25,309 bases of DNA from a virus. The notes beneath the pieces were generated by a model. That model worked only from the letters and a program-made list of their open reading frames with translations. It had not been told where the DNA came from and did not search any database. A program made the translations under genes and the position numbers. Shown piece by piece: positions 5,774 to 22,040 of this stretch (positions are counted from its first letter, which is position 1; each line of letters opens with the position of its first letter). The DNA is taken from IMG/VR virus record IMGVR_UViG_3300007236_002724, positions 1-25,309 of that record, one strand, 5' to 3'.

Positions 5774-5848
5774 GGGGCTATGGTGAAATGGATATCACAT
5801 GGGCCTTCTAAGCCCTCGTTCCAGGTTCGAATCCTGGTAGCCCTGCCA
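5774..5848 (+). tRNA. tRNA-Arg (anticodon UCU)
   Basis: A full cloverleaf: acceptor GGGGCTA/TAGCCCT with a G1:U72 pair, D stem GTGA/TCAC, anticodon stem TGGGC/GCCCT with a T:T mismatch at its top, loop CTTCTAA with anticodon TCT at 5807-5809, and T arm CCAGG-TTCGAAT-CCTGG. The discriminator is G73 and CCA is encoded (5846-5848). It reads AGA, and AGG by wobble, both abundant in several phage genes here. Confidence 0.93.
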
Positions 5849-5856
5849 CTTTATAG

Positions 5857-5900
5857 TAGCCCAACCGAACTATTGCAAAAAACATAGTCTGGTTGGGCTA
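5857..5900 (+). other. Inter-tRNA hairpin
   Basis: TAGCCCAACCGAACTAT (5857-5873) pairs with ATAGTCTGGTTGGGCTA (5884-5900): 15 of 17 pairs, with a 2-nt internal mismatch, around an A-rich loop. It fills the space between tRNA-Arg(UCU) and tRNA-Arg(CCU). Without a U-run it is more likely a processing or stability element of a tRNA precursor than a terminator; a factor-dependent terminator is possible. Confidence 0.5.
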
Positions 5901-5908
5901 TTAGCCAT

Positions 5909-5985
5909 CTCCTCGTAGCTCAGTTGGATAGAGCACAAGATTCCTAATCTTGGGGCCGCAGGTTCGAATCCTGCCGAGGAGGCCA
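5909..5985 (+). tRNA. tRNA-Arg (anticodon CCU)
   Basis: A full cloverleaf: acceptor CTCCTCG/CGAGGAG, D stem GCTC/GAGC, anticodon stem CAAGA/TCTTG, loop TTCCTAA with anticodon CCT at 5943-5945, T arm GCAGG-TTCGAAT-CCTGC, discriminator G and encoded CCA (5983-5985). It reads AGG. With the UCU isoacceptor just upstream it gives the phage dedicated supply for both AGR codons. Confidence 0.94.
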
Positions 5986-6082
5986 TTTTGAGAGGGTAAA
6001 ATAAAACCGTCGACCATCTGGTCGGCGTTAACACACACACACAAGGAGTCTCTTACCGGAAGCAGGCCAGGGCACCCCCCAT

Positions 6083-6158
6083 GGGCCGCTGGCGCAGTTG
6101 GTAGCGCACCGGACTTTTAATCCGAGGGTCGTGGGTTCGAGTCCCACGCGGCCCACCA
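6083..6158 (+). tRNA. tRNA-Lys (anticodon UUU)
   Basis: A full cloverleaf: acceptor GGGCCGC/GCGGCCC, D stem GCGC/GCGC, anticodon stem CCGGA/TCCGA, loop CTTTTAA with anticodon TTT, T arm GTGGG-TTCGAGT-CCCAC, A73 and encoded CCA (6156-6158). It reads AAA and AAG. The 97 bases before it contain a small hairpin (CGACC-ATCT-GGTCG, 6011-6024) and an (AC)n run near 6031-6044, but no gene I can support. Confidence 0.95.
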
Positions 6159-6192
6159 TCTTCCCGTGCGGCTTAGCCGCCAAGGAGCAACC

Positions 6193-6375
6193 ATGAAAAA
6201 GAAGAAGAAGTTCAACGCCGCGAAGGCGGCAAACGCCGCCACGCGAAAGGCCCACTTCGCTGCTGGGGGCACGGTCGCCATGTGGCGAGGTCGTGCTGCA
6301 ACCTTCACCGACCGCAAGAAGAAGGCAAACCGTCGCGCCTGTCGCGGCAACCTTTCCCCCTCCCACGGAGGATAG
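6193..6375 (+). CDS. Small Lys/Arg/Ala-rich basic protein
   Basis: A 60-residue, very basic protein that begins MKKKKK, has an alanine-rich helix (NAAKAANAATRKAHFAA) and ends with a basic TDRKKKANRRACRG segment. AAGGAG lies 6 nt before the ATG at 6193. A nucleic-acid-binding role is likely from charge alone; no family is assigned. All seven Arg codons are CGN, unlike the AGA/AGG-rich phage genes on the left, and it is tightly coupled to the next gene (4 bases between stop and start). The pair looks acquired. Confidence 0.65.
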   Translation: MKKKKKFNAAKAANAATRKAHFAAGGTVAMWRGRAATFTDRKKKANRRACRGNLSPSHGG

Positions 6376-6379
6376 AGGC

Positions 6380-7264
6380 ATGCTCACTGCAAAGAAGCTC
6401 GTCGACACCCACCGCGTTGGTGGTGGGTACGCTCGCCGTTCCGGGAAGCGTGGTCGGTGCAAGAACCCCGAAGTCCTCCGTCTCCGCCGCGAGTGGCTTG
6501 TGCTGGAGGAGGTTGTCGGAGAGGATGGGGTCACCTATCTCGACCTCACCGACCGCTACGATTCCCCCCGCGTGAAGTCGACCCGCCCGAACCGGAGCTG
6601 GGAGCGCAAGGACTTCGGCGAAAACCTGAACCCCTTGTGGCGGTTTCTGCAGAAGTCTGTGGGGCGCAACTGGGATTCCGTCTACAGCGAACTCTGTTCC
6701 CGCATGGACCCGCGAGGTGCCGTTAGCGGACACATCTTCCAGCACCTGTTCGACTTTGTGGTCACGTCTGAGAACGTGACCCTTGTCGATGGGAAGCCCC
6801 ACCACAAGGACTGGAAGGGCCTTCGTCCCATCACCTACAAGGGAAAGGTGGGTGAATTCTGGAACTTCTGGGTTGACCCGCGAGACGGGAAGCTCAAAGT
6901 TGGTGTCAAACCTGAACTCAGCAAGTGGGAGAAGGAAAGAAAGGACCGAGCTGAGCACTTCGCGAACAGCGTCCGCGATCTCGGAAATCGCGAGTGGCTG
7001 TGTCGGGATTCTGCTTCGGGACTTTGGTACCGGGTTCGCTATGAACCCCAGGTATGGCACCATTACACCAAGGAATCCTTGCGCTGGGGGCGGAACCCCG
7101 ATGGCTCTTTTGCCCGTTGTGAGCCCTATCTCCAGGAGTGCAAGGAAGCCCTGGTCAAAGAGGCACCCCACCCCGATACATTGGTTCTGCCGAAGGTCGG
7201 AAAAGATCTGGTCTTGGTCTCGTGTCGGAGCGCCAGCAAGAAGGAAATCAAGACCCACGTCTGA
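6380..7264 (+). CDS. Unknown 294-aa protein of bacterial codon style
   Basis: A 294-residue protein with an N-terminal basic patch (ARRSGKRGRCKN) and Trp-rich body segments (SWERKDFGENLNPLWRFL, VGRNWDSVYSELCSRM, VSGHIFQHLFDFV, WNFWVDPRDGKL). From memory this resembles a widespread uncharacterised family in high-GC Gram-negative bacteria, but I cannot confirm it and no catalytic motif stands out. The start at 6380 is set by GGAGG 8 nt upstream, just after the small basic gene. Arg codons are 29 CGN to 1 AGA and all three Ile codons are ATC, the opposite of the 85-1080 gene. Recent horizontal acquisition is the simplest reading. Confidence 0.8.
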   Translation: MLTAKKLVDTHRVGGGYARRSGKRGRCKNPEVLRLRREWLVLEEVVGEDGVTYLDLTDRYDSPRVKSTRPNRSWERKDFGENLNPLWRFLQKSVGRNWDSVYSELCSRMDPRGAVSGHIFQHLFDFVVTSENVTLVDGKPHHKDWKGLRPITYKGKVGEFWNFWVDPRDGKLKVGVKPELSKWEKERKDRAEHFANSVRDLGNREWLCRDSASGLWYRVRYEPQVWHHYTKESLRWGRNPDGSFARCEPYLQECKEALVKEAPHPDTLVLPKVGKDLVLVSCRSASKKEIKTHV

Positions 7265-7292
7265 TATGGGGATACGTCCCTGTGCCCCTTCT

Positions 7293-7300
7293 GGTATAGT
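7293..7300 (+). promoter_or_regulatory. Candidate extended -10 promoter
   Basis: TGGTATAGT at about 7292-7300 is an extended -10 element (TGnTATAGT) sitting just after the foreign two-gene insert and 33 bases before the next gene. No good -35 hexamer is visible. It could serve the 7333 gene and the CAU tRNA. Weak, motif-only evidence. Confidence 0.3.
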
Positions 7301-7332
7301 GAGGAATCAAAGCTGATTACAGAGATTATCAG

Positions 7333-7662
7333 GTGCTTGAAGCAGAAGTCGCGGCAGTCATCAGAGAACTTGGGTGGAACATCGTACGTGGTCCGTATTA
7401 CAACGGAAAGTACGCACACAAAGGCATCCACCTTTGGTCCATCAAGTCGGTTCTCAGCAAGAAGGAAATGGAAGACAGGGGCATCAAACTGGACAAGAAC
7501 TCCAAACCCGGAGACACCAGAACCGTGCGGTTCATGGCAGTGGTCAAGGATGGAGAGATGAAGCCCCTGCGCCACATCACCTCTTCCGAAAGGAAGAAAC
7601 TCGGTTCGCTCAAAGGCAATAGGAACCGGGTAAAGTCCAACACTCAGAATACGGGGAGTTAG
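7333..7662 (+). CDS. Unknown 109-aa basic protein
   Basis: A 109-residue protein starting at GTG 7333 (no strong ribosome binding site; an internal start is possible). It contains LEAEVAAVIRELGWNIVRGP, then a basic region (SKKEMEDRGIKLDKNSKPGD, SSERKKLGSLKGNRNR) that suggests nucleic-acid binding. No family recognised. Its last 10 bases, including the stop, overlap the 5' end of the CAU tRNA gene, so tRNA processing would cut its mRNA at the stop codon. Confidence 0.6.
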   Translation: MLEAEVAAVIRELGWNIVRGPYYNGKYAHKGIHLWSIKSVLSKKEMEDRGIKLDKNSKPGDTRTVRFMAVVKDGEMKPLRHITSSERKKLGSLKGNRNRVKSNTQNTGS

Positions 7663-7729
7663 CTCAGTTGGTCAGAGCATCCGGCTCATAACCGGACGGT
7701 CCTCGGTTCAAGCCCGAGACTCCCTACCA
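7653..7729 (+). tRNA. tRNA with anticodon CAU, probably tRNA-Ile2
   Basis: A full cloverleaf: acceptor GGGGAGT/ACTCCCT with a G1:U72 pair, D stem GCTC/GAGC, anticodon stem TCCGG/CCGGA, loop CTCATAA, T arm CTCGG-TTCAAGC-CCGAG, A73 and encoded CCA. It is not an initiator tRNA: 1:72 is paired and the three G:C pairs typical of initiators are absent. The choice is elongator Met or Ile2. The adjacent tilS gene, whose product converts C34 of tRNA-Ile2(CAU) to lysidine, argues for Ile2 and AUA decoding. The TTCAAG T-loop resembles E. coli Ile2 more than Met. The C4:G69 and C5:G68 pairs that help E. coli TilS recognition are absent, so the assignment rests mainly on context. Confidence 0.9.
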
Positions 7730-7855: not shown

Positions 7856-8512
7856 ATGAAGAAGTACCACCTCAGAGTCAAGAATATCGTTCCACACGAG
7901 GTAGCAGTGGCTGTGTCTGGGGGCGCGGACAGCATGGCGGCTCTGGATTTCCTCAGGCGTCCGGGCAGGGATATTCTGGCCCTCCACATGAACCACGGGA
8001 CTCCATTTGCTGATGAAGCCCAATCCTTGGTGGAGAAATATTGTTCCCAGCACAGCATCCCCCTGGTTGTAGGTCGTCTGGACAAGGAAATGGCCCCCGG
8101 TCGCTCCAAAGAAGACTTCTGGCGTGAGAACCGCTATGAATTCTTCGAAGCCAACCGGGGGGAAAGGAAGGTGGTCACGTGCCATCACCTGGGTGACGCC
8201 GTGGAGAATTGGTTGTTCACCTGCATGCACGGAAACCCGGCACTGATCCCAGAGGTCAGGGGGCACTATATCCGGCCATTCCTACACACCGAGAAGATGG
8301 GCTTTGTCCAGTGGTGTGAGAGGAAGGGGGTCCCCTTCATCGAGGACCCCAGCAACACCGATATTTCCTACATGAGGAACTACATCCGGCACGAAATGAT
8401 GCCGAAGGTCCTAAAAGTGAACCCCGGCATCAAGAAGACCGTCCGCAAGTTGATGGACAAACGGGGGGCCTATGCACACGGGTCGTCGTCTGCCGGGTCC
8501 TCTGGCGGATAA
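7856..8512 (+). CDS. tilS: tRNA(Ile)-lysidine synthase, short phage form
   Basis: A 218-residue N-type ATP pyrophosphatase. The P-loop SGGADS is at 21-26, HMNHG at 44-48, CHHLGDAVEN at 109-118 (TilS consensus HHxxDxxET), the RPFL motif at 140-143, and EDPSNTD followed by MRNYIRHEMMP at 163-183, the TilS-specific signature. TilS uses ATP and lysine to turn C34 of tRNA-Ile2(CAU) into lysidine, which changes its codon from AUG to AUA and its amino acid from Met to Ile. Only the catalytic domain is present; the C-terminal domains of the long (~430-aa) bacterial enzymes are absent. The start at 7856 is set by GGAG 6 nt upstream; the frame is open further up without a ribosome binding site. It has no ATA codon (0 of 9 Ile). 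The C-terminal SSSAGSSGG tail overlaps the convergent virion gene by 43 bases. Confidence 0.92.
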   Translation: MKKYHLRVKNIVPHEVAVAVSGGADSMAALDFLRRPGRDILALHMNHGTPFADEAQSLVEKYCSQHSIPLVVGRLDKEMAPGRSKEDFWRENRYEFFEANRGERKVVTCHHLGDAVENWLFTCMHGNPALIPEVRGHYIRPFLHTEKMGFVQWCERKGVPFIEDPSNTDISYMRNYIRHEMMPKVLKVNPGIKKTVRKLMDKRGAYAHGSSSAGSSGG

Positions 8513-11500
8513 GGAATGAGGGGGATGTTGGGGTCCCTTATCGCATTGGTGGATTTGACCATCGGCTTGCCTTCAAGTCTGTACCTATCAGCCGCTGAAT
8601 AGCCCTTACCGTAGTCCGTGGGGCTGATTATGCCGTCAAGTGCGTAACCGTGCTCGCACCCAGCTCCCTCGCCGTATACGGCGGAGGTCACCACCACCAT
8701 CTGCACTTCGTCGCCGTAGGACCGGATGGCAGTCCCAGCAAACGCTTCCTCGTAGGAATTGTGGACCAGGTATGCTCTCCCTGTCAGGATGGCTCCCTTC
8801 ACCACGGGCTCGTCACCCTCAGAGAGGCCCCCGGCAGAGTAGTCCACCGGACCACCAGCTGCCTCCGAAGAAAGGACGTACACCGACCCCCCACCCCGGT
8901 ACAGTCGGAACCTCCGGGTGCCATCCGGGGCCGAAACGGCGTTGTAAGCCGTGTACTGAAGAATGGCCCCGTCTGCCATCCCCATTTCCCCTCCCGCACC
9001 GTGAAGTCTCTCCGAGGGGATCTGGGAATCACCGAAGAAGGTGGAAACCTCCGTGGTGGACTGAGCACCTCCCCCAGACTTGATAGAGTAGGCCACCCCC
9101 TGGCGAAGCGGGTCCTCACCAAGGAAGTCTGAGTCCTGCACCAGAATCCCAAGCGGGAGTCTGTCGGTCATACCAGCCGCCCTCACAGGGGTGGGGGCGG
9201 AGGAAGACCGGGAGGCGTTTACGGGAACGTTGTGCCCACCGGACAGCGGGAGTCGGGTCAGAAGGGCGGAATAGGACGAAAGCCCAGACTGCAGTCTGTA
9301 GACATCCGTGTCGCTTATGGTGACGAACGTGTCTTCACCAGCAGACCCAGGTACAACAGCCTGTATGACCAGGGTGGTACCATAGGGGTGGGACCTGACC
9401 TTGTAGGTGTTTCTGAGACTGAGACCAACGGAGGTACCGAGGTTGTTGAGGGCCTGACTGAGGTTTTCAACCGACTCAACGGCGCTGGCACCAGCTGTCC
9501 AGTCCACCCCTTCGGTTATGGCTATCCCGGTTCCTCCCCCTCTCTCGAAAACGAGGGTGGTGCCGGATATACTGGGGTTGTCGAGGATGGTGATCGCCAA
9601 TTCGGCATAATGACCGTCTTCGGGCTGTCCAGCGCTCAGGGATCTGACGTGAGGCTGATACTGGTTGTCGGTGGAGGAACTTGGTATCCGCCCTCCGGTG
9701 CTCTCCAGATATCCGGAGTCGGTTACAGTTCCGGGGAACACCTTCCCGCCGATCTTTCCGGTTCCCAGGGTGGTCCAGAAGTCCACGGTGGAGAGAATCC
9801 TCAGACCGCGAGCGTTGGGGATCTCCGGAACCTGGTCGTTGTCGTTGTCGTACTGCTGGAGGGGGGCCTTGAGAGCGAAGGCATCCAGAACTGGTATCTG
9901 GCCGTGCCTGCTCCGGTAGTCTGCGGTCTGCAGGGTCACTGCACTCCGGGTCATGAAGGGGTCGCCCTGGTACACCGTGCGCTGATAGGCTGAGTATCCA
10001 AGCACCCCACCCGGCATAGCGGTGGGGATGATCATTCTTATGTCGTTGACGAGCTGGTCGCTCGTGTAGACCCCTCTGTCAAGAACATAATTGTTCTTGT
10101 TTATGAACCCCTGGGCGAAGCCAAATACCGCCACTTCCACCACGTATTCGAGGTCCTCGAACTTCTGCCCGGAAGTGTAGGCGGGGTGGAGGGAAATGTC
10201 CACAGCCTCTTCCGGAATCACGTAGGTGTGGGCGTCAGAACCTGCAGCCATGACGTCTGCAGCCCCATCCTTCACTATGAAGAGAGTCTGCTTGTCGGCG
10301 TTGGTCCTGAGAAGGTTGGTGCCCTTGGCCACTCCCGTGTCGGGAGTGTATCCAAGACCGTTGAGCCAAGCAGAACCGTTGACGTCGTAGTCGCTCTTCT
10401 CGTAGACCCCGTACACTCTGGCCACGCCGAGATAAGGAGGCAGCTGAATACCCCTCATGGGCTTGTTGATGTCGGTGGACCTGGCGTTGACGTCCGTGTA
10501 GATCCTGCCCTGGTACCTGTTGTTGGGAGAGTCCCAGTACCCGTAGTCGAACCCGGTCGAGGCACCAGTCACTATCTTGAGGGGAAGCCCAGCAGAAGTC
10601 CCTCCCACTATGCCCTTGGTCGCGTCACCGGGAGTTGGGGTGTCGCTGAACAGGTGGTTTATACCGAAGTACGGTCCGTCCGTTCCGGCGTTTTCCCGCA
10701 CCGGGATGTCCTGACGACCGAACCGGGGCATGTACTCCAGAGGAACGTCGTACACGTCCGTGTCGGTGAACAGGCCAGCGCCGTCTATGGGGGTGATCCC
10801 ATCCAGATAGTTGGAGGGGATCTGGGCCCCTGCGGTCCGACGGAGGGGAAGGCTCATGGAGACCTGACGGAAAGGTCTGAAAACTACGGTCTTGGAACCC
10901 CCGTCCAAGAACAGCTCCGACTCCCTGGAAGTTTCGAAGTTGTAGCGGTTTTCCCCGTAGTGAGGTGCTGCAGGTGCGCTGAGTCCCAAGCTCTGGAGTC
11001 TGTTCCAAGCCATGAGGGGCTGGGAATCATAGTAGTACTCGTCTTCCGGCGCTCCGGTTCTGCCCCGTATGTCGGCAGGGCTGGGGTCCTTGTTCTCCGG
11101 GGACTCTCTGAGGACGTTGGTCCCGACAGGGTTGAAGACAGCGAACCTCAACAGGTCGTCGGGGACACGGGCCATAGCCCCACGGCTCGGACCGTAGAGG
11201 ATGCTGGTGTCCAGCACCATTTCTCCGGAGATGGTGGGACCGCCAGTTATGCCGTTCCAGGGATTTGTGGCCCCTCCCCTCACTCCCTGTATGTCGGTTA
11301 TCACCACGACCACAGCAGCGCTGGAAGAACCTATGTTGTCTTCGGTGTTGGTGTAGAGGGACCGGACTTCTGCGTTTACGGTTTCCCCAAGGGAAATGGA
11401 GGAGCCCACACCCACGGGCTCGACCCTGAGCCTGTCTGCAGCCGTGGCAGCGTTGGAGGTGTAATTGGTGATTCCGGCACCTATGACCCTGAAAAGTCCA

Positions 11501-13728
11501 GAATCCGTGGTCCCACCAGTCAGGAAGAGGTACAGCTCGCTGGTCCTTCCGGTGATGTCCCTACCACCGTTGGTGAGCATATCGTACAGGTTCTTCTTCC
11601 CGTGGAGGAGGGTCTTGGAAATACCATCCAAAGAAGAAGTCCGAGGAGAGGAGGGGTCCGCCACCCAGGCTCCGACTGCGTCAAAGTCCTGTCCGGTGAA
11701 CTCGACCTCTATCAGAGGCCCAGCCACGTGGGTCACTGCCACTGCACTCTCAGTGAGTTCGGAGTTCACCACCCCACCGAGGACTGCGTACGGGGCTATA
11801 AACCCTTGGTCCGGGAGTGGGAACATCGGACCGGGGTGGGAATTGGGGGTTTCGCCCAGTCCAGCTGGCTGGCTCCAGGTCTGAGGTCCGGTGGAGGAGT
11901 CACCTATGAACCTCATGAGGAACGGGGTCTGGTTGCCCAGACTGGAGGACTCTGGGGTAGCCACTGGCATCTGGTCGCGAGACAACCAGTATTCCCGTGG
12001 ACCCACAAACCTCATGAAGGCGTCCGAGGAGGCGGAGGTCTTTCTGGCCCCGTCCTGTCCGCTGGAACCGCCGATGAAAAGGCGAATGACTGTGCCGTTC
12101 TCCCAAGTGGAGTTCCCGCTCGGTATGAACCCACTCACGGCAAAGTCAGCTGCAACTTCCCAATCGGTGGAGGCGTTGACTGAACCGGAGTCAGGAACCA
12201 GAGCAAGGGAGACGTGGTTCTGGACACACGCGGAGTCGGAAAACACCGTCCGGATTCCGTCGAAACCGTCGAGCTGCTCGGTCTGGGGAGGAAGGGAACC
12301 AGCTCCTCTGCCGAGGAGGGAATCGACCTCTATGATCCGGGTCCCCTGAGTGTCGGTCCCGGACCCCTGCTTGTAGGAGGAACGCAGGTTTCCGCTCAGG
12401 AGCTTTCCGAGGTTGTGCTTCAACACGGACTCGTAAGACCACTCACCGAATATGACCGACCTGCGGAGGTCCAGGATGTCGCTGCTGTCTATCTGGTCCG
12501 AGAACTTCCCGTCGGGGCGGAAGGTGTAGAACCCGAAGGAAGACCCAGCTTCGTGCAGAGTGGCCTGGGTCCCAAATCTGCCCCTGGAGTCCACGGTTAT
12601 GGTCCCGGCAGCAGCGTCAACCGCACTCACAGTCAGAATCTCGTCACCTATCACGAGGACGGTGGAGGACCACAGTATGTTGACGTTGTCCAGACCCGAG
12701 CCAGCCAGACCAGACACCGAAACCAGTCCCGTGAAGTCTTCATCCAAGTCCCCAACCAAAGTCACCGGGGTGAAGGTTCTGGCAGACTGGACGGGGTCGG
12801 TTATGGCACCGGATGTGGGGTTGCGGTCAAAGGACCCGTTCTGGTTGGCGTTCCCGGTGTCTATGGCCTTGAAGAGGTTGTAGTTGCGCCTGAAGACGGC
12901 ACAGATCGGGATAGCGTACGTGTAGCCGTCCACAGAACCGAGGTCGGACCTACTGGTCTCGTCCCCGTTGCCTGACCTCCACAGCCCCTTGTCCCCAAGC
13001 TCCACCCCCATGTTGGAGAAGGTGTAGCCAGCGACGGGGGAAACCTGAGACCCCTGCGCTATGACGTTGGGGTCGTCCAGACCATCGGGGTACTGGGCGA
13101 GGTCTATGGAGTCCCCAAGACCAGTGCCACTACCAACCACCCGAATGCGGTACTGGAGCTGAACCCTCTCCGTCGTCTCAAAGCCTATGGTTGGGTCCTG
13201 AATATCGTCAGTTACGTTGGTCCCGCCATACTTAACGTTTCCATACTTATAGAGAGTGGAAGCGGCGGGCTTGTTGACGGTGCTCGGGTTGGGAGCTACC
13301 TGAGCCTGCCAAACCTCAAGGAAAACGAAGTCTATGCGTGCATCGGTGGCGGGAGGAGGGAACAGGTTAATGCGGTTACTGGGGTCGCCCTCTGCGACCG
13401 AAGAACCAGAAACAGGAACTATCCACCCGTTTACGTTGGCCCACAGGAACGGAGCCTCGTTGGATTCCGTGGAAGGACGCCCGAACTGAAACCAGTTGCT
13501 CCAATTCGGGTTGGTGACGAAGGAGGACTCGGCTGCACACGGGTTCATGACGAACCCGGAGTGCATTTCGGACTGTACAGCTTCCCTCAGCTGCTCGTTG
13601 CTTATTTGAGCTACGAGGTTGAGTTCAGAGTCCAGGGGAGGTTTGGAAGCCTGCCACACAGTCTGCAGGAATTGGCGACTTTTGGCCGAAAGTGTCCGGC
13701 TAACGCCGTTTCCGAAGTCCTGGGCCAT
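8470..13728 (-). CDS. Giant virion structural protein (tail/baseplate type, putative)
   Basis: A 1752-residue, low-Cys, Gly/Ser/Thr-rich beta protein. The N-terminus SAKSRQFLQTVWQASKPPLD then SELNLVAQ (about 14-41) resembles the N-terminal signature of large phage tail/fibre proteins, where a DxELN-like motif follows a beta-strand. The body is long beta-rich segments. The last ~350 residues include YSIKSGGGAQSTTEVSTFFG, FRLYRGGGSVYVLSS and GRAYLVHNSYEEAFAGTAIR, and the protein ends in a Pro/Asp tail (PPEDPADDDPCA). No catalytic motif is evident. The start is set by CGGAG 9 nt upstream. It follows the sheath-like gene on the same strand but behind a terminator, so it probably has its own promoter. 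Virion location is inferred from size, composition and neighbour; fibre, baseplate and tail-surface roles are all open. Confidence 0.8.
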   Translation of the reverse strand: MAQDFGNGVSRTLSAKSRQFLQTVWQASKPPLDSELNLVAQISNEQLREAVQSEMHSGFVMNPCAAESSFVTNPNWSNWFQFGRPSTESNEAPFLWANVNGWIVPVSGSSVAEGDPSNRINLFPPPATDARIDFVFLEVWQAQVAPNPSTVNKPAASTLYKYGNVKYGGTNVTDDIQDPTIGFETTERVQLQYRIRVVGSGTGLGDSIDLAQYPDGLDDPNVIAQGSQVSPVAGYTFSNMGVELGDKGLWRSGNGDETSRSDLGSVDGYTYAIPICAVFRRNYNLFKAIDTGNANQNGSFDRNPTSGAITDPVQSARTFTPVTLVGDLDEDFTGLVSVSGLAGSGLDNVNILWSSTVLVIGDEILTVSAVDAAAGTITVDSRGRFGTQATLHEAGSSFGFYTFRPDGKFSDQIDSSDILDLRRSVIFGEWSYESVLKHNLGKLLSGNLRSSYKQGSGTDTQGTRIIEVDSLLGRGAGSLPPQTEQLDGFDGIRTVFSDSACVQNHVSLALVPDSGSVNASTDWEVAADFAVSGFIPSGNSTWENGTVIRLFIGGSSGQDGARKTSASSDAFMRFVGPREYWLSRDQMPVATPESSSLGNQTPFLMRFIGDSSTGPQTWSQPAGLGETPNSHPGPMFPLPDQGFIAPYAVLGGVVNSELTESAVAVTHVAGPLIEVEFTGQDFDAVGAWVADPSSPRTSSLDGISKTLLHGKKNLYDMLTNGGRDITGRTSELYLFLTGGTTDSGLFRVIGAGITNYTSNAATAADRLRVEPVGVGSSISLGETVNAEVRSLYTNTEDNIGSSSAAVVVVITDIQGVRGGATNPWNGITGGPTISGEMVLDTSILYGPSRGAMARVPDDLLRFAVFNPVGTNVLRESPENKDPSPADIRGRTGAPEDEYYYDSQPLMAWNRLQSLGLSAPAAPHYGENRYNFETSRESELFLDGGSKTVVFRPFRQVSMSLPLRRTAGAQIPSNYLDGITPIDGAGLFTDTDVYDVPLEYMPRFGRQDIPVRENAGTDGPYFGINHLFSDTPTPGDATKGIVGGTSAGLPLKIVTGASTGFDYGYWDSPNNRYQGRIYTDVNARSTDINKPMRGIQLPPYLGVARVYGVYEKSDYDVNGSAWLNGLGYTPDTGVAKGTNLLRTNADKQTLFIVKDGAADVMAAGSDAHTYVIPEEAVDISLHPAYTSGQKFEDLEYVVEVAVFGFAQGFINKNNYVLDRGVYTSDQLVNDIRMIIPTAMPGGVLGYSAYQRTVYQGDPFMTRSAVTLQTADYRSRHGQIPVLDAFALKAPLQQYDNDNDQVPEIPNARGLRILSTVDFWTTLGTGKIGGKVFPGTVTDSGYLESTGGRIPSSSTDNQYQPHVRSLSAGQPEDGHYAELAITILDNPSISGTTLVFERGGGTGIAITEGVDWTAGASAVESVENLSQALNNLGTSVGLSLRNTYKVRSHPYGTTLVIQAVVPGSAGEDTFVTISDTDVYRLQSGLSSYSALLTRLPLSGGHNVPVNASRSSSAPTPVRAAGMTDRLPLGILVQDSDFLGEDPLRQGVAYSIKSGGGAQSTTEVSTFFGDSQIPSERLHGAGGEMGMADGAILQYTAYNAVSAPDGTRRFRLYRGGGSVYVLSSEAAGGPVDYSAGGLSEGDEPVVKGAILTGRAYLVHNSYEEAFAGTAIRSYGDEVQMVVVTSAVYGEGAGCEHGYALDGIISPTDYGKGYSAADRYRLEGKPMVKSTNAIRDPNIPLIPYPPEDPADDDPCA

Positions 13729-13982
13729 GGTTTCTATCTCCGAGATACAGTCTTATCTGTATTCTACCCCGGTGAACTGATAGGCAGTCTAACGGCTCAG
13801 CCCATTTCTATCCGCACCGTGCTGGGACCAGCTGCATCGTATCCGGTGTTTATCGGCTCAGTGAAATCCAGAAACTCGTCGCCTTCCTCAAGAGAGCCCG
13901 ATTTGAGTTTTCTCTAACGGAAAAAAGAGGTGAAGATGTATTGCGGCTCCTATTACGGTGCGACGAATAAGGACCTAACGAA
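13729..13982 (-). promoter_or_regulatory. Leader/promoter region of the 8470-13728 gene
   Basis: About 250 non-coding bases. Reading the minus strand there is TAGAATA (complement of 13760-13766) followed by an inverted repeat GATACAG-TCTTAT-CTGTATT (13744-13763) immediately before the ribosome binding site. A matching TAGAATA stands upstream of the sheath-like gene (complement of 19250-19256). It may be a shared late -10 element; no -35 hexamer is convincing. I see no supported gene in the rest of the gap. Confidence 0.3.
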
Positions 13983-14020
13983 GAAGCCCCCCAACCGAAG
14001 TTTACGAATTGGGGGGCTTC
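13983..14020. terminator. Terminator hairpin after the sheath-like gene
   Basis: GAAGCCCCCCAA (13983-13994) and TTGGGGGGCTTC (14009-14020) form a perfect 12-bp stem around a 14-nt loop, 22 bases after the end of the 14042-19234 coding region on the minus strand. The following minus-strand bases (TTCGTT) are only modestly T-rich, so efficiency is uncertain. It separates the two giant genes into different transcription units. Confidence 0.7.
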
Positions 14021-14041
14021 CACCTGCTTGCGCTGCTGAGG

Positions 14042-17000
14042 TTACAGGCTGGAACGCAGGTTGAACGTCACGACGATGTAGAGCAGCGGGAAGACGGGCT
14101 GGTAGTAAGCCTCGACTTCAGCGACGGTCGGGTCGTCAGGAGACGTTATCGCGGACACCCCGGTGAAGGCGTTGATGATCTGCGCCTTGACCAGATTCTT
14201 GAGGGTCGCGGAGAGCTGTCCCTCAATCTGAGTGGTGACCCCGTCAAGGAACTTCTGACCGACGAACCTGTCAAGAGTGACGCGAGCCTGCTGCTGGACC
14301 TCGTCCGCGATGGTGATCACGGTAGGGGTCTTGGTCAGGACGTTGGTCATATCGGTGGTGAGACCGTGACGGCACTCGATGATCCGCTGCCGCTGAGCGA
14401 AGACCGAGAGGCCCTTCACAGCGACCTGGTTCTGCTGTACCGGGTCGAGGGTACGGGCGAGGTCGTCAAACCCTACCAGACGCCCACGGGTCCAGGGAGT
14501 AGCCACGTCGATGGTGGGGGCAGCGCGGTTTCCTGCCCAAGCTGCCGCAACGTAGGTCCCGTCCACCAGGTACGTGTCAGTGTTGCCGTCAGCCCTGGAA
14601 ATGCTGAGAGTAGCTATATCCGGGTAGAGGAGGCGGAAGCGGCTACGAGCGATTGCCTGTGCCATGTCTCCAGCTTCGCGGGGTTGGGTTCCGGCAGAGA
14701 GACCGCAGATTGCGGTGCGCTCTGCGCGGTACCGGATGCTGGACTGGATGTCGCAGTGCTTGGCGAGGTACTGGTAGAGGGTCAGGCTGTCACCCCGGAG
14801 AGGGATGATGTAGGACGGGAAGGACCCCCCAGGCAGAGCACCCTCAACGTCGTCGATAGCGGCGATGTAGGCGTCCACGCTGGCGTCGTCGCTGACACCG
14901 TCCGCATCCGTGTCGGTGTCCTTCCTGACCTGCTTCACCGCGACTATCACAGCTCCATTCAGGATGGAGAGGTAGGAGGCGAGGGAAACCGGGTACTCCG
15001 TGCTCTTGGGACCGTAAGAAGCCTCCACGGTGCTGAGCTTGGTGAACAGCTGGGTGGAGAAGCCCTGCTTCTGGTACTCGTAGCTGACGTAGTACACGTC
15101 ACCCACCGAGGGCTGGTTGCCACCCTTTTCGTAGGTCTGCACGATTGCCATGTCGCCCGCCGTGACGCCGCTCGTGTTTGCGACGTAGAGTTCAACACCT
15201 GGCAACGTGTTCACAGGCAGATTGCTGTCCGTGGTGACGTTGTTGCGAACCGAGAACGTGATGGTGGAGGTTCCCCCTGTGGGGTAAGCTGCACCGCCCG
15301 CACGAGGCAGAATGGTGAAGGTCAGCCCCGTCACGGAGTCACGGTAGGTCTGACCGACGATTCCGTCCTGTCCAGTTCCGGTGTTGAGCACCGAAGTGTT
15401 GGCCGTACCAGATCCGGACACGGTGTCGGAAGAAGTGACGTAGAAGCCGTCGACTGCCGATTCTCCCACGTTTCCGTCACCAGCCGTGATGCCGAGACCA
15501 ACTCCAGGTCGCAGCGCCGTGCTGGCTTCAAAAGCCACGCTGGAAGTGGTTCCCGCCCCAGCGGCACCCTGGCTCTGAACGTACAGGTACTTGGCGCTGG
15601 CCCCATCACTGACGGTCTTTGCCAGACCAGCAGCACTGAAAGCGGAAGCGGCCATCAGGCCACTCACCAGCGTCTCAACCGAAAGGTCGGAGCGGTAAGC
15701 AACGTCCCCGTCACCGAACCCGAGAGCCGAGTTGGCGCTACCGGTTCCTATCACGATGCTGGCCGCCGAAGCAGAAGACCCACCCCGGAACCGGATACCA
15801 GCGCCTTCCTGGATGGCGGTGGCGGCGAGCCCAGCAGCCGACATAGCGGAGTTGATCTGTGTGATAATCGGACCAGCAGCTGCACCGCTGGGATCGGTAA
15901 GAGGAACGTCAGCCGAGCCACCAGGGGGGATAGCCGTAGTTCCGTCCGACTGGAGGAACTCGACCGTGACCGGGGTTCCGTCGAAGGTGAACTTGAACAC
16001 GTTGTTCTGGGGGGTGGTTCCACCAGCCGCGTAGAAAGTCACAACCGGGTTTCCTGCGACATCCTGACCACCGGCCAGACCGACCTCTCCGAAGAGGGTG
16101 GGCTCCATGACGGTTGCGCGGATTCCAGCCTCAGCTTCCTCGTTGGCCGTGAGTCCAGCCTGGTCGGCACCTGTGCCTCCCAGGACCTTCAGCTGGCACT
16201 GACCAAGGACGAATTCGCTATCGGTTGCCTGACCGGGGGTAATCCGGTTGGTGAGAAGAATTCGGTCGTAGCCAGCAAGAGCCGGGGGACCAGCGATCTC
16301 GAAGTGGGTAGCGATCTGATCGTTGTGGAGCTTAGCCTGTGCACCACCAGACCCCGCTATGTCAAACCCAGCGAGAACGCAGAAGTCCTCTTCCGCGTTA
16401 CCACCAGCCGAGGCGTCCGAGACAAACTCCAGAACCGCACCGAGGTTGGCAGGGGTGTCGGACTGAGGGATAACCTTTATGGCAATCCGTCCATTGGAGT
16501 CCGCTTCCGCCAGGATGAGCGGGGAAAGGCCAGCGTCGGGAGGACCAGCGAGAGCCGCCCAGGCTGCGTCCACAGCAGCCTGCATCTTGGACTGAACTTC
16601 AACAGCCAGGGTGGAGGCGGTGTAGGGAGTAGCACCGGAGGGGGCTATTGTGGCTGCAGCTGCACCCGTACAATCAACGGTATCTGCTCCGACGATTCGG
16701 AAGTTTATGTCGTCAAAGGCTCCTGCCGCTATGCTAAGCGGAGCCAAGAAACGGGTCGACCCCTTCATGGCAGGGAGGGTGCCCTCGTTGTACAGGACGT
16801 ACTGCTCGGCGGCTCCAGGAGTGTTGCCACCGAAGCCCGCATCGAGGGTCGCGACCTTCGTGGTCCCATTGTAGGCGAGAACCTCTGCCGTATCCCCGAT
16901 AGCCGTCGTGCCGGTGGCGGTCACCAACCGGATCGTCCACCCGACGTAGTAATCGTCGATTCCAGAAGCGGTAGCGTCGAGAGTAATGCTGGTAGTGGAG

Positions 17001-19234
17001 CCCGCAGCCTGCAAGGCGAGTGCAACGCCACCGTTGTCCCAGTCACCAAACGCAGCACGGTTGATGGCGGAAACGTAAGAAGCTGCATCCACCCCAGCTG
17101 CCACTTCTGCCATGGCTTGGACGAGAATACCGTCGATCTCAAGGTCAACGGCGTTGTTCGTGGCGTCAATGTCGTAGGTGGTGTTGCCGCTGTCAGCATC
17201 GTAGGAGATTTCCCCACCCACCATGGTTGCACGGAATCCCGTACCGTTGCCAGTGGGGTCACCAAGGTCGGTTGCCGCAGTGGCACCGTTGTCGATGTTC
17301 ACATCGAGCGAATCCGACTGCCCGTTGATGGGGAAGTAAGGGCCAGGTCCGGGGACCGTGTACTTCGCTATGGTGGCGTCCTGGGAAGCGAACGTCACGG
17401 TGACGTCCTCTTCAACCGCCCCAGTGAGAGAGGTAGCATCGAACGGAGCTTCGAAGCGACAGTCTGGGGTGCGTTCTGAACCCGAGGGGAATTCCACGGT
17501 GACAGAGGCCAGGGCTGCACCCTTGCTGCTGAACTGGGGAGTGGGAAGAACGCTTCCCGCTTCGTTCTTGAGGGTGAAGGTCCCCACGCCCGACGCGCCA
17601 GCGGTCACGCACTCTACGCTGTACTCCTGGTCGACCAGGGTGTTGTAGTAGAACGTGGCGTAGACGGTCGCACCAACGGGGACAGGCTCTGCCAGCGTGA
17701 TGGTGCTGGTGGAGGACTCGACCTTGGTGACCTCAACGCGTCCCCGGTCGAGGGCGTCTTCGACCGAGTAGCCCCAGTAGGCCCACACGAGATCGGGTCG
17801 GTTGGTCGGAAGATCGACGCGACCGTTGGCGACCTCGCTGTACGTCTCCGAGGAGAGCGGCGTGTCGCGACCGTTGCCCGTGGTCGGCTGGAGCGGGAGG
17901 GTGAACTCCAGGCGTCCCTCAGAAGGGGGATTCACAGAAGTGTTCACCACAGCCGAGCACTCAGCGAGGTACTGACGTACGTCCACGAGGGTCGCGCTGA
18001 CCTGGGTGTCGGTGAAGACCGTCCCGCCAGTGGTGTACTCGCCCGACTCGATGGTGACGGCGGTGCCCCAGAGGATCTTGTCGTCCTTGAGAACGAAGTC
18101 TGAACTTTCGACGTAGTCGTTACGGTCGGGGGTCACACCGCACAGAGTCACATCGGTGATACCCCGGTTGGCGAGGTAGTCGAACGTGTCCTGCCAGCTG
18201 TTGAAGTAGTAGCGAATGGTCACCACCACGCCGACTTCGGGGGCGATGGGGAGGGTCACCGCACCGGACTGTCCGTCAACAGCAGTGGGGATGACCTGAA
18301 CGTTGTCAACTAGGACGGTTACGTCGCTGGGGCTCGTGGTGGTAACACCGCCGTTGGTCCCATCGACGATAGGACGCTGGAAGGTGTAGAACACCTTGTT
18401 GCGGTTGGTGGCATCCCCAGAAGAGAGGCCAAGGGTGGTGTTGGCAGAGCCGCTTCCAACCTCGATGTTCCTATCTGCGGTGAGGTAGATGACCGTGTCA
18501 CCGAGGTTGTTGACAGCGGTGGAAGCCGAGAGGCTGGTGCCCGTGGCCGCGCTGTTGATGAAAGCAGCGACCTGGGCTGCAGTCCAACCACCGGAGGGAG
18601 AGGCAGAGATCGTGACGCTGACCGTGTTCGCGTCGTCAACCAGGAACGAGAGGGAGTCGTTCACGTCCGTGGTGATGTCGTATTTCTGGCTAACCTGCCC
18701 GTACAGCTCAGGAGCGTCCGGGGAGATCTGGTCGCTGACGGTGTCGGTGATCAGAGTGTCGGTGCGGTTGAAGAAGTAGGTCACGAGAACCTCGTCCGTG
18801 GCCTCAGGGGACACAGAGAGGGTCAGAACACCCTTGGCACCGTCGATTGCAAGGACGACGACGGGAGAGCCGTTCACGGTGACGTTCACCGAAGAGGAAG
18901 AGGTCGCGGTGGTCCCGGTTCCGTCGCCAGAAACGATGGGGAAGTGCTTGACCTGCAGGCGGTTGTAGCTCCCGTTGAAGTCGCCACGGGTGACCGCCCC
19001 AGCAGCGCTGATATCGACCACTGCTCGACCAGCCTCGTCTTCCTGCACGACCCTCTGGTCCACAGTGGAGGAAGAGCCCCGAACGATTTCGAGAGAGGAC
19101 TGGGAGAGGATTTCCGAACCGGGCCCTATTATGAGGGGGATTCTGACGGACTCCGCCAGCCCCCGAACTGGATCTTCGGTGAAGGTCTGAGTGTAAACGC
19201 CGGGAGGTGCGTAGGTGGAGCCGGGAAATGCCAT
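14042..19234 (-). CDS. Giant tail-sheath-like protein with large internal insertions
   Basis: A 1730-residue protein. The N-terminus MAFPGSTYAPPGVYTQTF carries the PGVY signature of contractile-tail sheath proteins. The C-terminal ~340 residues fit a sheath core: IARSRFRLLYPDIATLSI (1528-1545), VDGTYVAAAWAGNRAAPTID (1557-1576), RQRIIECRHGLTTDM (1615-1629), TIADEVQQQARVTLDRFVG (1641-1659) and a terminal PVFPLLYIVVTFNLR. Usual sheaths are about 400-700 residues. The extra ~1250 (roughly 110-1390) are repeated beta modules: one type at ~116-156, 304-345 and 498-531 (TLSVSP..VLVTYFFN style), another at ~216-273 and 1119-1177 (INSA...GSANTTLGL style) with weaker copies near 685-760 and 830-955. 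GAGG precedes the ATG. Sheath subunits stack around the tail tube and contract on infection; the insertions would decorate the tail surface. Confidence 0.85.
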   Translation of the reverse strand: MAFPGSTYAPPGVYTQTFTEDPVRGLAESVRIPLIIGPGSEILSQSSLEIVRGSSSTVDQRVVQEDEAGRAVVDISAAGAVTRGDFNGSYNRLQVKHFPIVSGDGTGTTATSSSSVNVTVNGSPVVVLAIDGAKGVLTLSVSPEATDEVLVTYFFNRTDTLITDTVSDQISPDAPELYGQVSQKYDITTDVNDSLSFLVDDANTVSVTISASPSGGWTAAQVAAFINSAATGTSLSASTAVNNLGDTVIYLTADRNIEVGSGSANTTLGLSSGDATNRNKVFYTFQRPIVDGTNGGVTTTSPSDVTVLVDNVQVIPTAVDGQSGAVTLPIAPEVGVVVTIRYYFNSWQDTFDYLANRGITDVTLCGVTPDRNDYVESSDFVLKDDKILWGTAVTIESGEYTTGGTVFTDTQVSATLVDVRQYLAECSAVVNTSVNPPSEGRLEFTLPLQPTTGNGRDTPLSSETYSEVANGRVDLPTNRPDLVWAYWGYSVEDALDRGRVEVTKVESSTSTITLAEPVPVGATVYATFYYNTLVDQEYSVECVTAGASGVGTFTLKNEAGSVLPTPQFSSKGAALASVTVEFPSGSERTPDCRFEAPFDATSLTGAVEEDVTVTFASQDATIAKYTVPGPGPYFPINGQSDSLDVNIDNGATAATDLGDPTGNGTGFRATMVGGEISYDADSGNTTYDIDATNNAVDLEIDGILVQAMAEVAAGVDAASYVSAINRAAFGDWDNGGVALALQAAGSTTSITLDATASGIDDYYVGWTIRLVTATGTTAIGDTAEVLAYNGTTKVATLDAGFGGNTPGAAEQYVLYNEGTLPAMKGSTRFLAPLSIAAGAFDDINFRIVGADTVDCTGAAAATIAPSGATPYTASTLAVEVQSKMQAAVDAAWAALAGPPDAGLSPLILAEADSNGRIAIKVIPQSDTPANLGAVLEFVSDASAGGNAEEDFCVLAGFDIAGSGGAQAKLHNDQIATHFEIAGPPALAGYDRILLTNRITPGQATDSEFVLGQCQLKVLGGTGADQAGLTANEEAEAGIRATVMEPTLFGEVGLAGGQDVAGNPVVTFYAAGGTTPQNNVFKFTFDGTPVTVEFLQSDGTTAIPPGGSADVPLTDPSGAAAGPIITQINSAMSAAGLAATAIQEGAGIRFRGGSSASAASIVIGTGSANSALGFGDGDVAYRSDLSVETLVSGLMAASAFSAAGLAKTVSDGASAKYLYVQSQGAAGAGTTSSVAFEASTALRPGVGLGITAGDGNVGESAVDGFYVTSSDTVSGSGTANTSVLNTGTGQDGIVGQTYRDSVTGLTFTILPRAGGAAYPTGGTSTITFSVRNNVTTDSNLPVNTLPGVELYVANTSGVTAGDMAIVQTYEKGGNQPSVGDVYYVSYEYQKQGFSTQLFTKLSTVEASYGPKSTEYPVSLASYLSILNGAVIVAVKQVRKDTDTDADGVSDDASVDAYIAAIDDVEGALPGGSFPSYIIPLRGDSLTLYQYLAKHCDIQSSIRYRAERTAICGLSAGTQPREAGDMAQAIARSRFRLLYPDIATLSISRADGNTDTYLVDGTYVAAAWAGNRAAPTIDVATPWTRGRLVGFDDLARTLDPVQQNQVAVKGLSVFAQRQRIIECRHGLTTDMTNVLTKTPTVITIADEVQQQARVTLDRFVGQKFLDGVTTQIEGQLSATLKNLVKAQIINAFTGVSAITSPDDPTVAEVEAYYQPVFPLLYIVVTFNLRSSL

Positions 19235-19339: not shown

Positions 19340-20071
19340 CTAACCGAAAGCCACCTCCAGTGCCCGTTTCCCACCCTTTTCCCATATCTCGCCGGGGTCT
19401 TTTCCACCCCTGTACTGCACTATCCGGTTGTTGACCCCCGAAAACGACAGCTTCTCCCCGACCCCCCAGATTCTCTTCCCAGTTTCGGGGTGGACGTACC
19501 CGTAAGCCATGTTGCGCCCGGTCTGGTCCATATCGAAGCAGACGTGAACCATAGACTTCCTTCTCACAAACCGAGACAAGAAGTTGACCTGATTGCTGGT
19601 TATCTTGGCTCCTCCACAGGCCAGCACGACGTCCTTGTCCGGAACGAAGTGGTATAGGGACATATCGAAGATGCCCTCAACCAGCCATACGTCTGCGCCT
19701 TTGCTTATCTTCTTCAGAATTCCGGGGGTCATACCAGTGAACACTGGCTCCCACCTGGAATTGGGGAGGAAATACTTGGCTACTCCCTTGTCCCCGTCCC
19801 ACCTGCGCCACTCGGCACCCGCGAGGACTCCCCGTGGGGTCCACAGAGGGATCGAAATATGGTCGTGGAGGTTCTGCCCGGTCGTTCCGTGCCTGTCGCG
19901 AAAAGTCTCGTCCTGCGAGTCTTCGTAGGAGTACGAGTCCCACACCCCCACACCCATGTCGACCATGAGCCTGTGGGGTAGACCCCTGCCGTTCACATGA
20001 CAGAGGAAATCCTCAGACAGATCTTCCGACGCGGACAGCAGACAGGAGGTGAGCCACTCCCTCTGGTTCAT
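19340..20071 (-). CDS. DNA primase (TOPRIM type)
   Basis: A 243-residue primase core. TOPRIM motifs are visible: VEGIFD (131-136, catalytic Glu132), CFDMDQTG (178-185, the DxD pair Asp180/Asp182) and RGGKDPGEIW (221-230, the KDP motif of DnaG). The N-terminal half includes HDHISIPLWTPRGVLAGAEWR, typical of the DnaG RNA-polymerase domain. There is no N-terminal CxxH/CxxC zinc finger and no helicase domain, so it is a short primase acting with the separately encoded helicase. It makes RNA primers for lagging-strand synthesis. The ATG overlaps the stop of the FmdB-type gene (ATGA). It is last in the 22762-19340 replication operon. Confidence 0.9.
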   Translation of the reverse strand: MNQREWLTSCLLSASEDLSEDFLCHVNGRGLPHRLMVDMGVGVWDSYSYEDSQDETFRDRHGTTGQNLHDHISIPLWTPRGVLAGAEWRRWDGDKGVAKYFLPNSRWEPVFTGMTPGILKKISKGADVWLVEGIFDMSLYHFVPDKDVVLACGGAKITSNQVNFLSRFVRRKSMVHVCFDMDQTGRNMAYGYVHPETGKRIWGVGEKLSFSGVNNRIVQYRGGKDPGEIWEKGGKRALEVAFG

Positions 20072-20547
20072 TCTTCGGACTTCTTGGCGCGAGCTTGTTT
20101 GTTGTTCTCGACGTTGGCCTTGTTGACCACCCTGGCCATCTTCCTGCGTTCGTTGATTGTCTTCCTCTCGGATTCAGACATAACCCTGTACCCCTCTTGA
20201 TCCCGCGTCTTGACCAGATGTTGGCTCGAAACACCGATACCAGCCTTTCGTTGTTCCCGAATCATCTTGTCCTTCTTGGACTGGTTCTCGTGGATCCTTT
20301 CCCACTTCTCGGCGGCATCCTTGCCGATGGCCTTGTCATAATTCCAGTCGTCGCTCGTCCCGGTGTTGGGAGGGAGGGGTCCGTTGCGCTGGCTGGCGGA
20401 GTGGTTGAACTTGAACGAAATCGCAGAAACCTGCCTGTGTCCAGTACCACCACAATCGCAGCTGTGCTCTTGGTCGTCCGAGGTCCTGGGATACAGGACT
20501 TCGAACTTGAGACCACAATCGTGGCACAGGAACTCGTATATAGGCAT
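20068..20547 (-). CDS. FmdB-family zinc-ribbon protein
   Basis: A 159-residue protein whose N-terminus is a classic FmdB/CxxC-CxxC zinc ribbon: MPIYEFLCHDCGLKFEVL, then CDCGG, then RQVSAISFKFN (residues 1-48). The rest is a long charged helical tail (KWERIHENQSKKDKMIREQRK and NERRKMARVVNKANVENNKQARAKK). FmdB proteins are small putative regulators of unknown mechanism. The ATG at 20547 follows GGGGAGGACAAA and gives the canonical MPIYEF start; a longer frame up to 20565 overlaps the helicase stop. Sitting between helicase and primase, it could be a replisome accessory factor; this is inferred from position only. Confidence 0.88.
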   Translation of the reverse strand: MPIYEFLCHDCGLKFEVLYPRTSDDQEHSCDCGGTGHRQVSAISFKFNHSASQRNGPLPPNTGTSDDWNYDKAIGKDAAEKWERIHENQSKKDKMIREQRKAGIGVSSQHLVKTRDQEGYRVMSESERKTINERRKMARVVNKANVENNKQARAKKSEE

Positions 20548-20561
20548 TTTGTCCTCCCCGG

Positions 20562-22040
20562 TCACACGTCCAGATCAATCTCTTGTCCGGCTTGCCTGAC
20601 GGTGCTGCCCACCATTTCGGTGGTGGTATAAAGTCGTCTACAATCCCAAAGTACCCCTGCATAGAAGTCAGAGAACGGCTTGTGGTCTCTGGTCTTCAAG
20701 CATTGGAATTTCAGGAGGTTGGACTCTCTCAACTCGTCGTCCACCCAGCCAGCCGTCACGATGTCCGACGAACGTTCAGCTTCGTTGGCATAGGAGAGGT
20801 GAGTCAGGTTGTACCTGCCGCCGTTCTTTTCGGCGCTCTTGTAGCCCTCACGGCTGATCTGGAACAGCGCCACCACAGCGATGCCCATACCCCTGTTGAA
20901 GTTCATCGAGAGTCGCTTCAAATCGCGAAGCACCTCGTTCAACCGCTCCGTGGTGCTGCTGTATCTCGACCGGGACTGCATCAATCCCGCGTGGTCGATC
21001 ACCCCCATCCGAATTCCGGGGTCCTTCTGATACAGGAGCTGCAGTCTGGACTTGAAGTCTTCCACAGTGTAGTCGGACTTGTCTGGGTCCGAAACCTCGA
21101 TGTGGATGTGACCATAGTTGTTGTCGGGGTCGTTGAAGTCCTTGACCACGTGGTCGAACAGGAACCTCTTCTCGACTTCGTTGAGTTCCCCATCCCGCAT
21201 CTTGTCGTATCTCAGGCTCTTTCCTATACCCAGTGACCTTCTGATCTTGTCGAACTTGGGGTGGCAGGAGTGCAGGGCGTAGAAGATACGCCTGACCTGA
21301 GGATAGGGCATTTCCAGTGAGGCCAGAGCCGAAGAGTGCTTGTAATACACCGCTTGGTTATAGCACCAGTTGAAGGCGAAGGTGGACTTCAAGCCACCCG
21401 TGAAAGCCGAGTGGGTCCACAGCTCTCCGCGCTTCGCACCTTTGATGGCTTCGTCTATCTGCTTGATCCCGCAGAACTGCCCGATGCCAGCGAGTGGGTC
21501 GTTTTCCACCCGTTCGTATTCGGAACGGAAGGACTCACCGTCGGTGGTGATATCCCCGGACAGCTTCACCCCGGTGGTGGTGACCAACACCTTGTGGGAG
21601 TTGTCCATGATGTAGCGAGCGGCCTGTTCAGGACCTTTGAGGATTCTCTCTTCTTTCCCCTCTTTGACCGCTATCCCGGTTTCCAGAATTCTGGCTGCAT
21701 CCTTGATAAGGTCCGAGAAGATCCGGATCTTCCTGTCTTCCACACGGGAATTCAGGACTTGTATGAAGTCACCTTGGGCCTTCGGCCTCTCCACACACAG
21801 AGTCTCCATCCGGTCCACAACCGTGACCTGGGAGTTTCTGTTGAAGTAGCTCCTGATGGAGGAGCTGTCTGGCACGTGTTGGTGCTGGGACACGAAGTTC
21901 TGAACGTATCCCCAGATAGCCTCGTCCTCCGGAATGTCGAACACAATCCCGGAATCCTTGAGGGCCTGAAAGTTCCTGAGGAACAGAGTCTGGTCATCAG
22001 AGGGGTCGACCCTGAATGTGGACCTGAGCAGGGTTTTCAT
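20562..22040 (-). CDS. Replicative DnaB-type DNA helicase
   Basis: A 492-residue RecA-fold helicase. The N-terminal domain (1-~150) is helical as in DnaB. The Walker A region is SAFTGGLKST (211-220), a variant with GGLKS in place of the usual GxGKT. Walker B is MGVIDHAG (345-352, Asp349), followed by EVLRDLKRLSMNF, IAVVALFQISREG (387-399; Gln394 is the sensor Gln in DnaB) and LKTRDHKP (448-455) matching the DnaB K-x-R finger motif. It unwinds the fork as a hexamer. The ATG overlaps the stop of the upstream loader-like gene (ATGA). Ile codons are mostly ATC (about 4 of 28 ATA), so ATA richness is not uniform across the phage. Confidence 0.92.
   Translation of the reverse strand: MKTLLRSTFRVDPSDDQTLFLRNFQALKDSGIVFDIPEDEAIWGYVQNFVSQHQHVPDSSSIRSYFNRNSQVTVVDRMETLCVERPKAQGDFIQVLNSRVEDRKIRIFSDLIKDAARILETGIAVKEGKEERILKGPEQAARYIMDNSHKVLVTTTGVKLSGDITTDGESFRSEYERVENDPLAGIGQFCGIKQIDEAIKGAKRGELWTHSAFTGGLKSTFAFNWCYNQAVYYKHSSALASLEMPYPQVRRIFYALHSCHPKFDKIRRSLGIGKSLRYDKMRDGELNEVEKRFLFDHVVKDFNDPDNNYGHIHIEVSDPDKSDYTVEDFKSRLQLLYQKDPGIRMGVIDHAGLMQSRSRYSSTTERLNEVLRDLKRLSMNFNRGMGIAVVALFQISREGYKSAEKNGGRYNLTHLSYANEAERSSDIVTAGWVDDELRESNLLKFQCLKTRDHKPFSDFYAGVLWDCRRLYTTTEMVGSTVRQAGQEIDLDV

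Follow-up and report, generated by a model that had tools for sequence, protein, structure and literature searches.

A 1730-residue tail sheath protein with a largely conserved insert and a variable apex in a lineage of large phages

The sheaths of known contractile tails are assembled from rings of six subunits. In jumbo phages, Evseev et al. 2022 described multi-domain sheaths of 'type 3', the longest of them 1283 aa (LacPavin_0818_WC45); in these sheaths the core is conserved from both ends and several accessory domains, often Ig-like, lie distant from the tube (PMC9230969). Known structures place additional sheath domains away from the tube, sheath size follows phage genome size, and a general parallel with flagellin architecture has been drawn (PMC9230969). 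A very large sheath that matches the present protein in fold, shorter at 1492 aa, is found in the isolated Synechococcus phage S-CBWM1 (A0A3G1L3U1, in BFVD). The best named-phage relative of the sheath described here, beside LR745208.1, is gp326 of Tunturiibacter phage Tunturi_5 (1204 aa, 31% identity), which is annotated as a tail sheath. Tunturi 5 is a jumbo phage with a contractile tail of about 167 nm, 'typical for myoviruses', which has been seen both extended and contracted (PMC11924767).

The stretch of DNA analysed here (the window) comprises all 25,309 bases of an IMG/VR record, and is hence a fragment of a larger genome. Its giant tail sheath gene is one intact ORF on the minus strand (14042-19234) that begins with ATG and comprises 1730 codons with no internal stop. 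The chance of 1730 random open codons at the 58% GC of the window is about 10^-27, and conservation across relatives is stronger proof than this probability that the ORF is genuine. A plus-strand reading of the interval was rejected because of stops in that frame, and a fused or chimeric ORF was rejected because the same length occurs in dozens of independent contigs. The protein ranks with the largest sheath proteins found to date, although big phages with multi-domain sheaths were known before; new here are the greater length, the defined insertion site and the modular apex. Type 3 sheaths are known to 1283 aa, whereas the giant sheath has 1730 aa and its family reaches about 1880 aa. The gene is divided as follows.

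14042..19234, minus strand: whole giant tail sheath gene (1730 aa, 178.6 kDa)
19106..19234, minus strand: N-terminal arm, residues 1-43 (YAPPGVYT...), colinear with the Tunturi_5 sheath from its residue 1 onward
17315..19105, minus strand: conserved first half of the insert, residues 44-640 (55-78% mean identity, little length change, low dN/dS)
18764..18967, minus strand: beta module copy 1, residues 90-157 (profile match to 279-346)
18407..18715, minus strand: flagellin/FliD-like domain, residues 174-276 (fold match to Vibrio FlaA)
18197..18400, minus strand: beta module copy 2, residues 279-346 (repeat of 90-157; DUF2460 match)
16235..17314, minus strand: variable apex, residues 641-1000 (22-46% mean identity, indels of about 80-115 aa, highest dN/dS)
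16775..17074, minus strand: Ig-like domain, residues 721-820 (a unit that is either present or missing)
15077..16234, minus strand: conserved second half of the insert, residues 1001-1386, including a module copy at 1081-1173 (identity blocks, self-comparison, model)
14045..15076, minus strand: sheath core, residues 1387-1730 (phi812 fold match, PHROG 2839, Finch profile match)

The sheath core was recognised by its fold and by a sequence profile. AlphaFold2 was run as two overlapping models, residues 1-1200 (mean pLDDT 78) and 532-1730 (mean pLDDT 86.5), with the N-terminal arm and the core in different models; positions in the second model plus 531 give protein residues. Residues 1389-1717 of the predicted model match the sheath of phage phi812 with Z 27.5 and an rmsd of 2.7 over 292 aligned residues, and the core model matches the R-pyocin sheath with Z 26.5 and T4-like sheaths with Z 22-24. 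The PDB fold matches at E<=0.001 number 55, and those listed are all contractile-system structures. Sequence searches of the PDB, whether with the full protein or with a core profile, returned no match, and fold comparison alone succeeded. At the profile level, PHROG 2839 'tail sheath' matches residues 1357-1726 (E=1.7e-26) and the Finch sheath matches the core at 99.5%. The sheath family stays below Pfam thresholds throughout: the C-terminal sheath model PF17482 scores 17.4 bits against a curated cut-off of 26.9, and PF04984 has no match in the giant sheath. PF17482 misses half of the relatives and is thus an unreliable detector for the family; the fold and PHROG matches weigh more than these Pfam scores. 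The sequence-only reading had proposed a contractile-tail sheath layout at the C-terminus, and the PHROG and phi812 matches bear this out, about the last 344 residues being confidently sheath-like. The predicted structure supports the 1730-aa protein as a contractile tail sheath with a near-complete core fold.

The PGVY N-terminus on which the same reading had relied is present as YAPPGVYT and is near-invariant among 24 sequences. This arm has a pLDDT below 50 when modelled without the core, its partner being in the other model. In nearly all listed sheaths the fold match begins at about residue 32-47 of their chain, and the piece before the core is therefore read as the insert preceded by an N-terminal arm of about residues 1-43. 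The insert of about 1340 residues occupies a single site, between the arm of about 43 aa and the core, a placement based on the ranges of the alignments and on profile alignments, not on residue-by-residue superposition. The very large insert that had been noted thus stands, at a size slightly above the proposed 1250 residues or so; the N-terminal core piece comprises about residues 1-43, not 1-110, because residues 60-158 already form an accessory beta domain that is repeated at 279-346. T4 gp18 and the phi812 sheath share the core fold with the giant sheath, but T4-like and phi812 sheaths carry their unaligned accessory residues inside the aligned core range, whereas the insert of the giant sheath precedes that range. 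A homologous core (profile probability 99%) is also present in the PHROG 2839 sheaths of Rhodococcus phage Finch (483 aa) and of Mycobacterium Bixzunavirus phages, among them Ava3 (581 aa). By alignment the Finch and Ava3 sheaths apparently have the same insertion site. The matches of the Finch and Mycobacterium phage sheaths are restricted to the core, and their insert is about 70-170 aa against about 1340.

The Tunturi_5 sheath is colinear at profile positions 1-636 and 1255-1705 with the same insertion layout, and differs in the absence of most of the apex and of residues 1080-1255 or so. LR745208.1, a 485-kb uncultured phage, carries an unannotated sheath ORF of up to 1677 codons, aligned to 79% of the query at 49% identity, as its single sheath; its apex is shorter and the match is interrupted between residues 732 and 810. 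A literature search for papers naming LR745208 found none. The S-CBWM1 sheath was absent from the sequence-search matches among named phages and was detected by fold. A single-sequence scan of IMG/VR returned at least 43 loci with relatives at 37-79% identity, and a scan with an alignment as query confirmed 304 stretches, the best 80 of which were retained. Full-length relatives are typically about 1620-1880 aa, on contigs that include some of 223, 288, 297, 316 and 536 kb. The sheath frame is broken, by split ORFs or an early divergent end, at L022 (2887-8333) and L004 (9893-15102), probably through assembly or sequencing errors.

The insert is far from uniform. In 40-residue blocks, mean identity to the relatives is 55-78% at residues 41-640 and 41-77% at 961-1400, against 54-79% in the core. 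Residues 44-640 and 1001-1386, about three quarters of the insert, are therefore about as conserved as the core. Profile self-comparison finds residues 90-157 repeated at 279-346 (99.3% probability, 37% identity) and residues 196-278 repeated at 1081-1173 (96.6%), with weaker repeats near 500-540 and 682-730. DUF2460 is matched in all 24 alignment members, in the window's protein at residues 302-345 and there below its curated cut-off. The domain at 174-276 resembles Vibrio flagellin FlaA (Z 10.3, rmsd 2.1, 90 aligned by VIA-align) and FliD (Z 7-8.5), and matches accessory domains of the Pa193 and E217 phage sheaths with Z 6.5-6.8 (Pa193 Z 6.8). The parallel drawn by Evseev et al. is a general one, whereas in the giant sheath a flagellin-like domain fold lies within the insert itself. 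This likeness concerns a single domain fold of about 100 residues, with no flagellin families among the Pfam matches of the protein. The giant sheath as a flagellin or FliD, which would call for D0/D1 helices or a flagellin Pfam domain, was accordingly rejected. The several accessory modules outside the core, seen in the models and the repeat analysis, place the protein among the 'type 3' multi-domain sheaths. Weak matches to parts of the insert (residues 88-141 and 281-329) also turn up in other giant ORFs, 1764 and 2125 aa long (LR745208.1, 262126-262284; the record of L070 (G015), 76318-76461), which suggests modules that may be common to large virion proteins.

Over residues 641-1000 mean identity falls mostly to 22-46%, and whole domains of about 80-115 residues have been acquired or lost several times. 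Of 49 non-identical full-length proteins, 40 keep the Ig-like domain at 721-820, which matches a domain of a GTA virion protein (Z 9.5 by fold comparison). In the other 9 it is cut back to exactly 12 residues, a distribution that requires three changes or more on the core tree. Some relatives carry additional modules of about 100 residues at two further sites in the apex. For L024, L089 and L032 the match in each case is PHROG 28344 (E 1e-7 to 4e-14), and the L107 module only weakly matches the sheath family PHROG 165 (E=0.008); the L024 module had no tblastn match among phages. Distances in the apex follow core distances with a Spearman coefficient of 0.67, against 0.86 for the first half of the insert.

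All regions of the giant sheath are under purifying selection. Pairs with 70-94% identity give dN/dS values of 0.10-0.46 for the apex and 0.05-0.31 for the other regions, and the apex is the region with the highest value of the four in nearly every pair. Positive selection at the apex was not seen, no region having a dN/dS above 1 as averaged over about 350 codons, which could mask a few selected sites; for pairs further apart, dS reaches saturation. This pattern agrees with a constrained body that bears a tolerant, exposed tip and does not fit an arms-race receptor-binding surface.

The protein is probably, if by no means certainly, the single sheath of a large (jumbo or huge) phage lineage, in which an ordinary contractile core is enclosed by a conserved structural layer and topped by a modular tip that is exposed. 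The arm (1-43) and the C-terminal domain (1387-1730) would make up an ordinary sheath core around the tail tube that drives contraction, and the inserted residues, about 1340 in all, would project outward by analogy with solved sheaths (PMC9230969). Conserved parts of the insert may pack on adjacent subunits and make the tail stiffer or more stable, as their conservation suggests. The apex (641-1000) would be an exposed tip where Ig-like and flagellin-like domains could be gained and lost without harm to contraction, weak adhesion to surfaces being a possible side benefit. The 'unusually thick, decorated' tail proposed from the sequence, perhaps serving adhesion or protection, fares less well: most of the insert matches the core in conservation and so looks like an integral structural layer, only about 360 residues are decoration-like, and the tail of Tunturi 5, the nearest relative to have been imaged, is described as typical (PMC11924767). 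With six subunits per ring, a ring would weigh about 1.07 MDa (178.6 kDa each), less than a quarter of which would belong to the core. The sheath protein of T4 has 659 residues, and a contractile tail is apparently able to bear a subunit about 2.6 times as long.

Other roles for the insert have been weighed against this arrangement. It is rather unlikely that the insert chiefly makes the tail sticky, with hundreds of Ig-like or flagellin-like copies weakly binding host glycans or surfaces and so aiding host finding. The domain swapping at the apex and the flagellin/FliD-like fold would agree with such a function, as would the recurrence of Ig-like domains in phage adhesion and in sheaths (PMC9230969), but the apex lacks diversifying selection (omega 0.10-0.46), about three quarters of the insert is conserved like the core and unlike a receptor-binding region, and no carbohydrate-binding family scores above its cut-off in the window's protein. 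Distinctly unlikely is a sheath that doubles as a surface-display organelle, in which a swappable Ig-like or flagellin-like tip, in hundreds of copies per tail, would decide which surfaces are bound, separately from the receptor-binding fibres. An insert that is neutral or dead weight would accord with the scaling of sheath size with genome size (PMC9230969) and with the absence of much of 640-1255 from Tunturi_5; strong purifying selection, together with the fact that 44-640 and 1001-1386 hardly vary in length among divergent relatives, makes it highly unlikely.

That the protein is sheath-derived and has another role, for example as a tail fibre or a sheath paralogue, with the true sheath encoded at another locus, is largely refuted and extremely improbable. 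The window, being a fragment, has no recognised tube or baseplate gene, and Pfam sheath models are below cut-off or unmatched, as such a role would allow. Against it stand the near-complete core fold, the annotation of the Tunturi_5 homologue as the tail sheath of a phage whose tail is contractile, and the single sheath match in each relative genome. No second sheath was found in the large relatives searched (66-536 kb, including those of 485 kb and 536 kb and the complete 309-kb Tunturi_5). The separate sheath of normal size that would have overturned the sequence-only reading is thus missing from every large relative searched, the window's own genome being represented by a 25-kb fragment.

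For the cause of sheath growth with genome size, the family amounts to a clean experiment made by nature. With a single site of insertion, a long and strictly conserved outer layer, and a tip that gains and loses entire domains while the rest of the protein stays stable, ideas of stability, adhesion and dead weight become separable by domain. The family also supplies a profile for annotating huge-phage sheaths missed by Pfam models.

The genes around the sheath differ among genomes. The Tunturi_5 sheath gene lies between annotated head and tail genes, L040 has terminase and portal genes 4-7 kb downstream of the sheath, and the sheath neighbours in the window are replication genes and a putative tail protein of 1752 aa. 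The T4-type tube family PF06841 had no match in the relatives, and gp25 (PF04965) gave weak sub-threshold matches only. MAG-contig matches carry the labels Verrucomicrobiota and Actinomycetota; these may be binning artefacts, and no host is therefore assigned.

Toprim primase and DnaB-like helicase genes (19340-22040, minus) directly adjoin the window's sheath, at the place where many relatives have a protein of about 400 aa similar to Tunturi_5 gp324 ('tail terminator'). Upstream of the sheath, in most cases directly next to it, 41-43 of 45 compared loci encode a protein of about 150 aa with four conserved cysteines and a near-invariant P..TG core (Zn_ribbon_8/FmdB-like; 20068-20565, minus); in the window the Toprim primase gene intervenes. 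The neighbouring gene at 8470-13728 (minus) encodes the giant 1752-aa protein, which is weakly like a PHROG tail protein, is 40% identical over 98% to one in LR745208.1, and resembles at its N-terminus a Tunturi_5 tail fibre and gp420 of Bacillus phage G. Long antisense ORFs lie over the sheath gene (14009-17479, plus, 1156 aa; its L041 counterpart 9941-15316, minus, 1791 aa) and were rejected as genes, being judged an artefact of GC-rich codon structure and usage. Four tRNA genes (Arg-TCT, Arg-CCT, Lys-TTT and Met-CAT) are found at 5774-7729 on the plus strand, opposite to the sheath.
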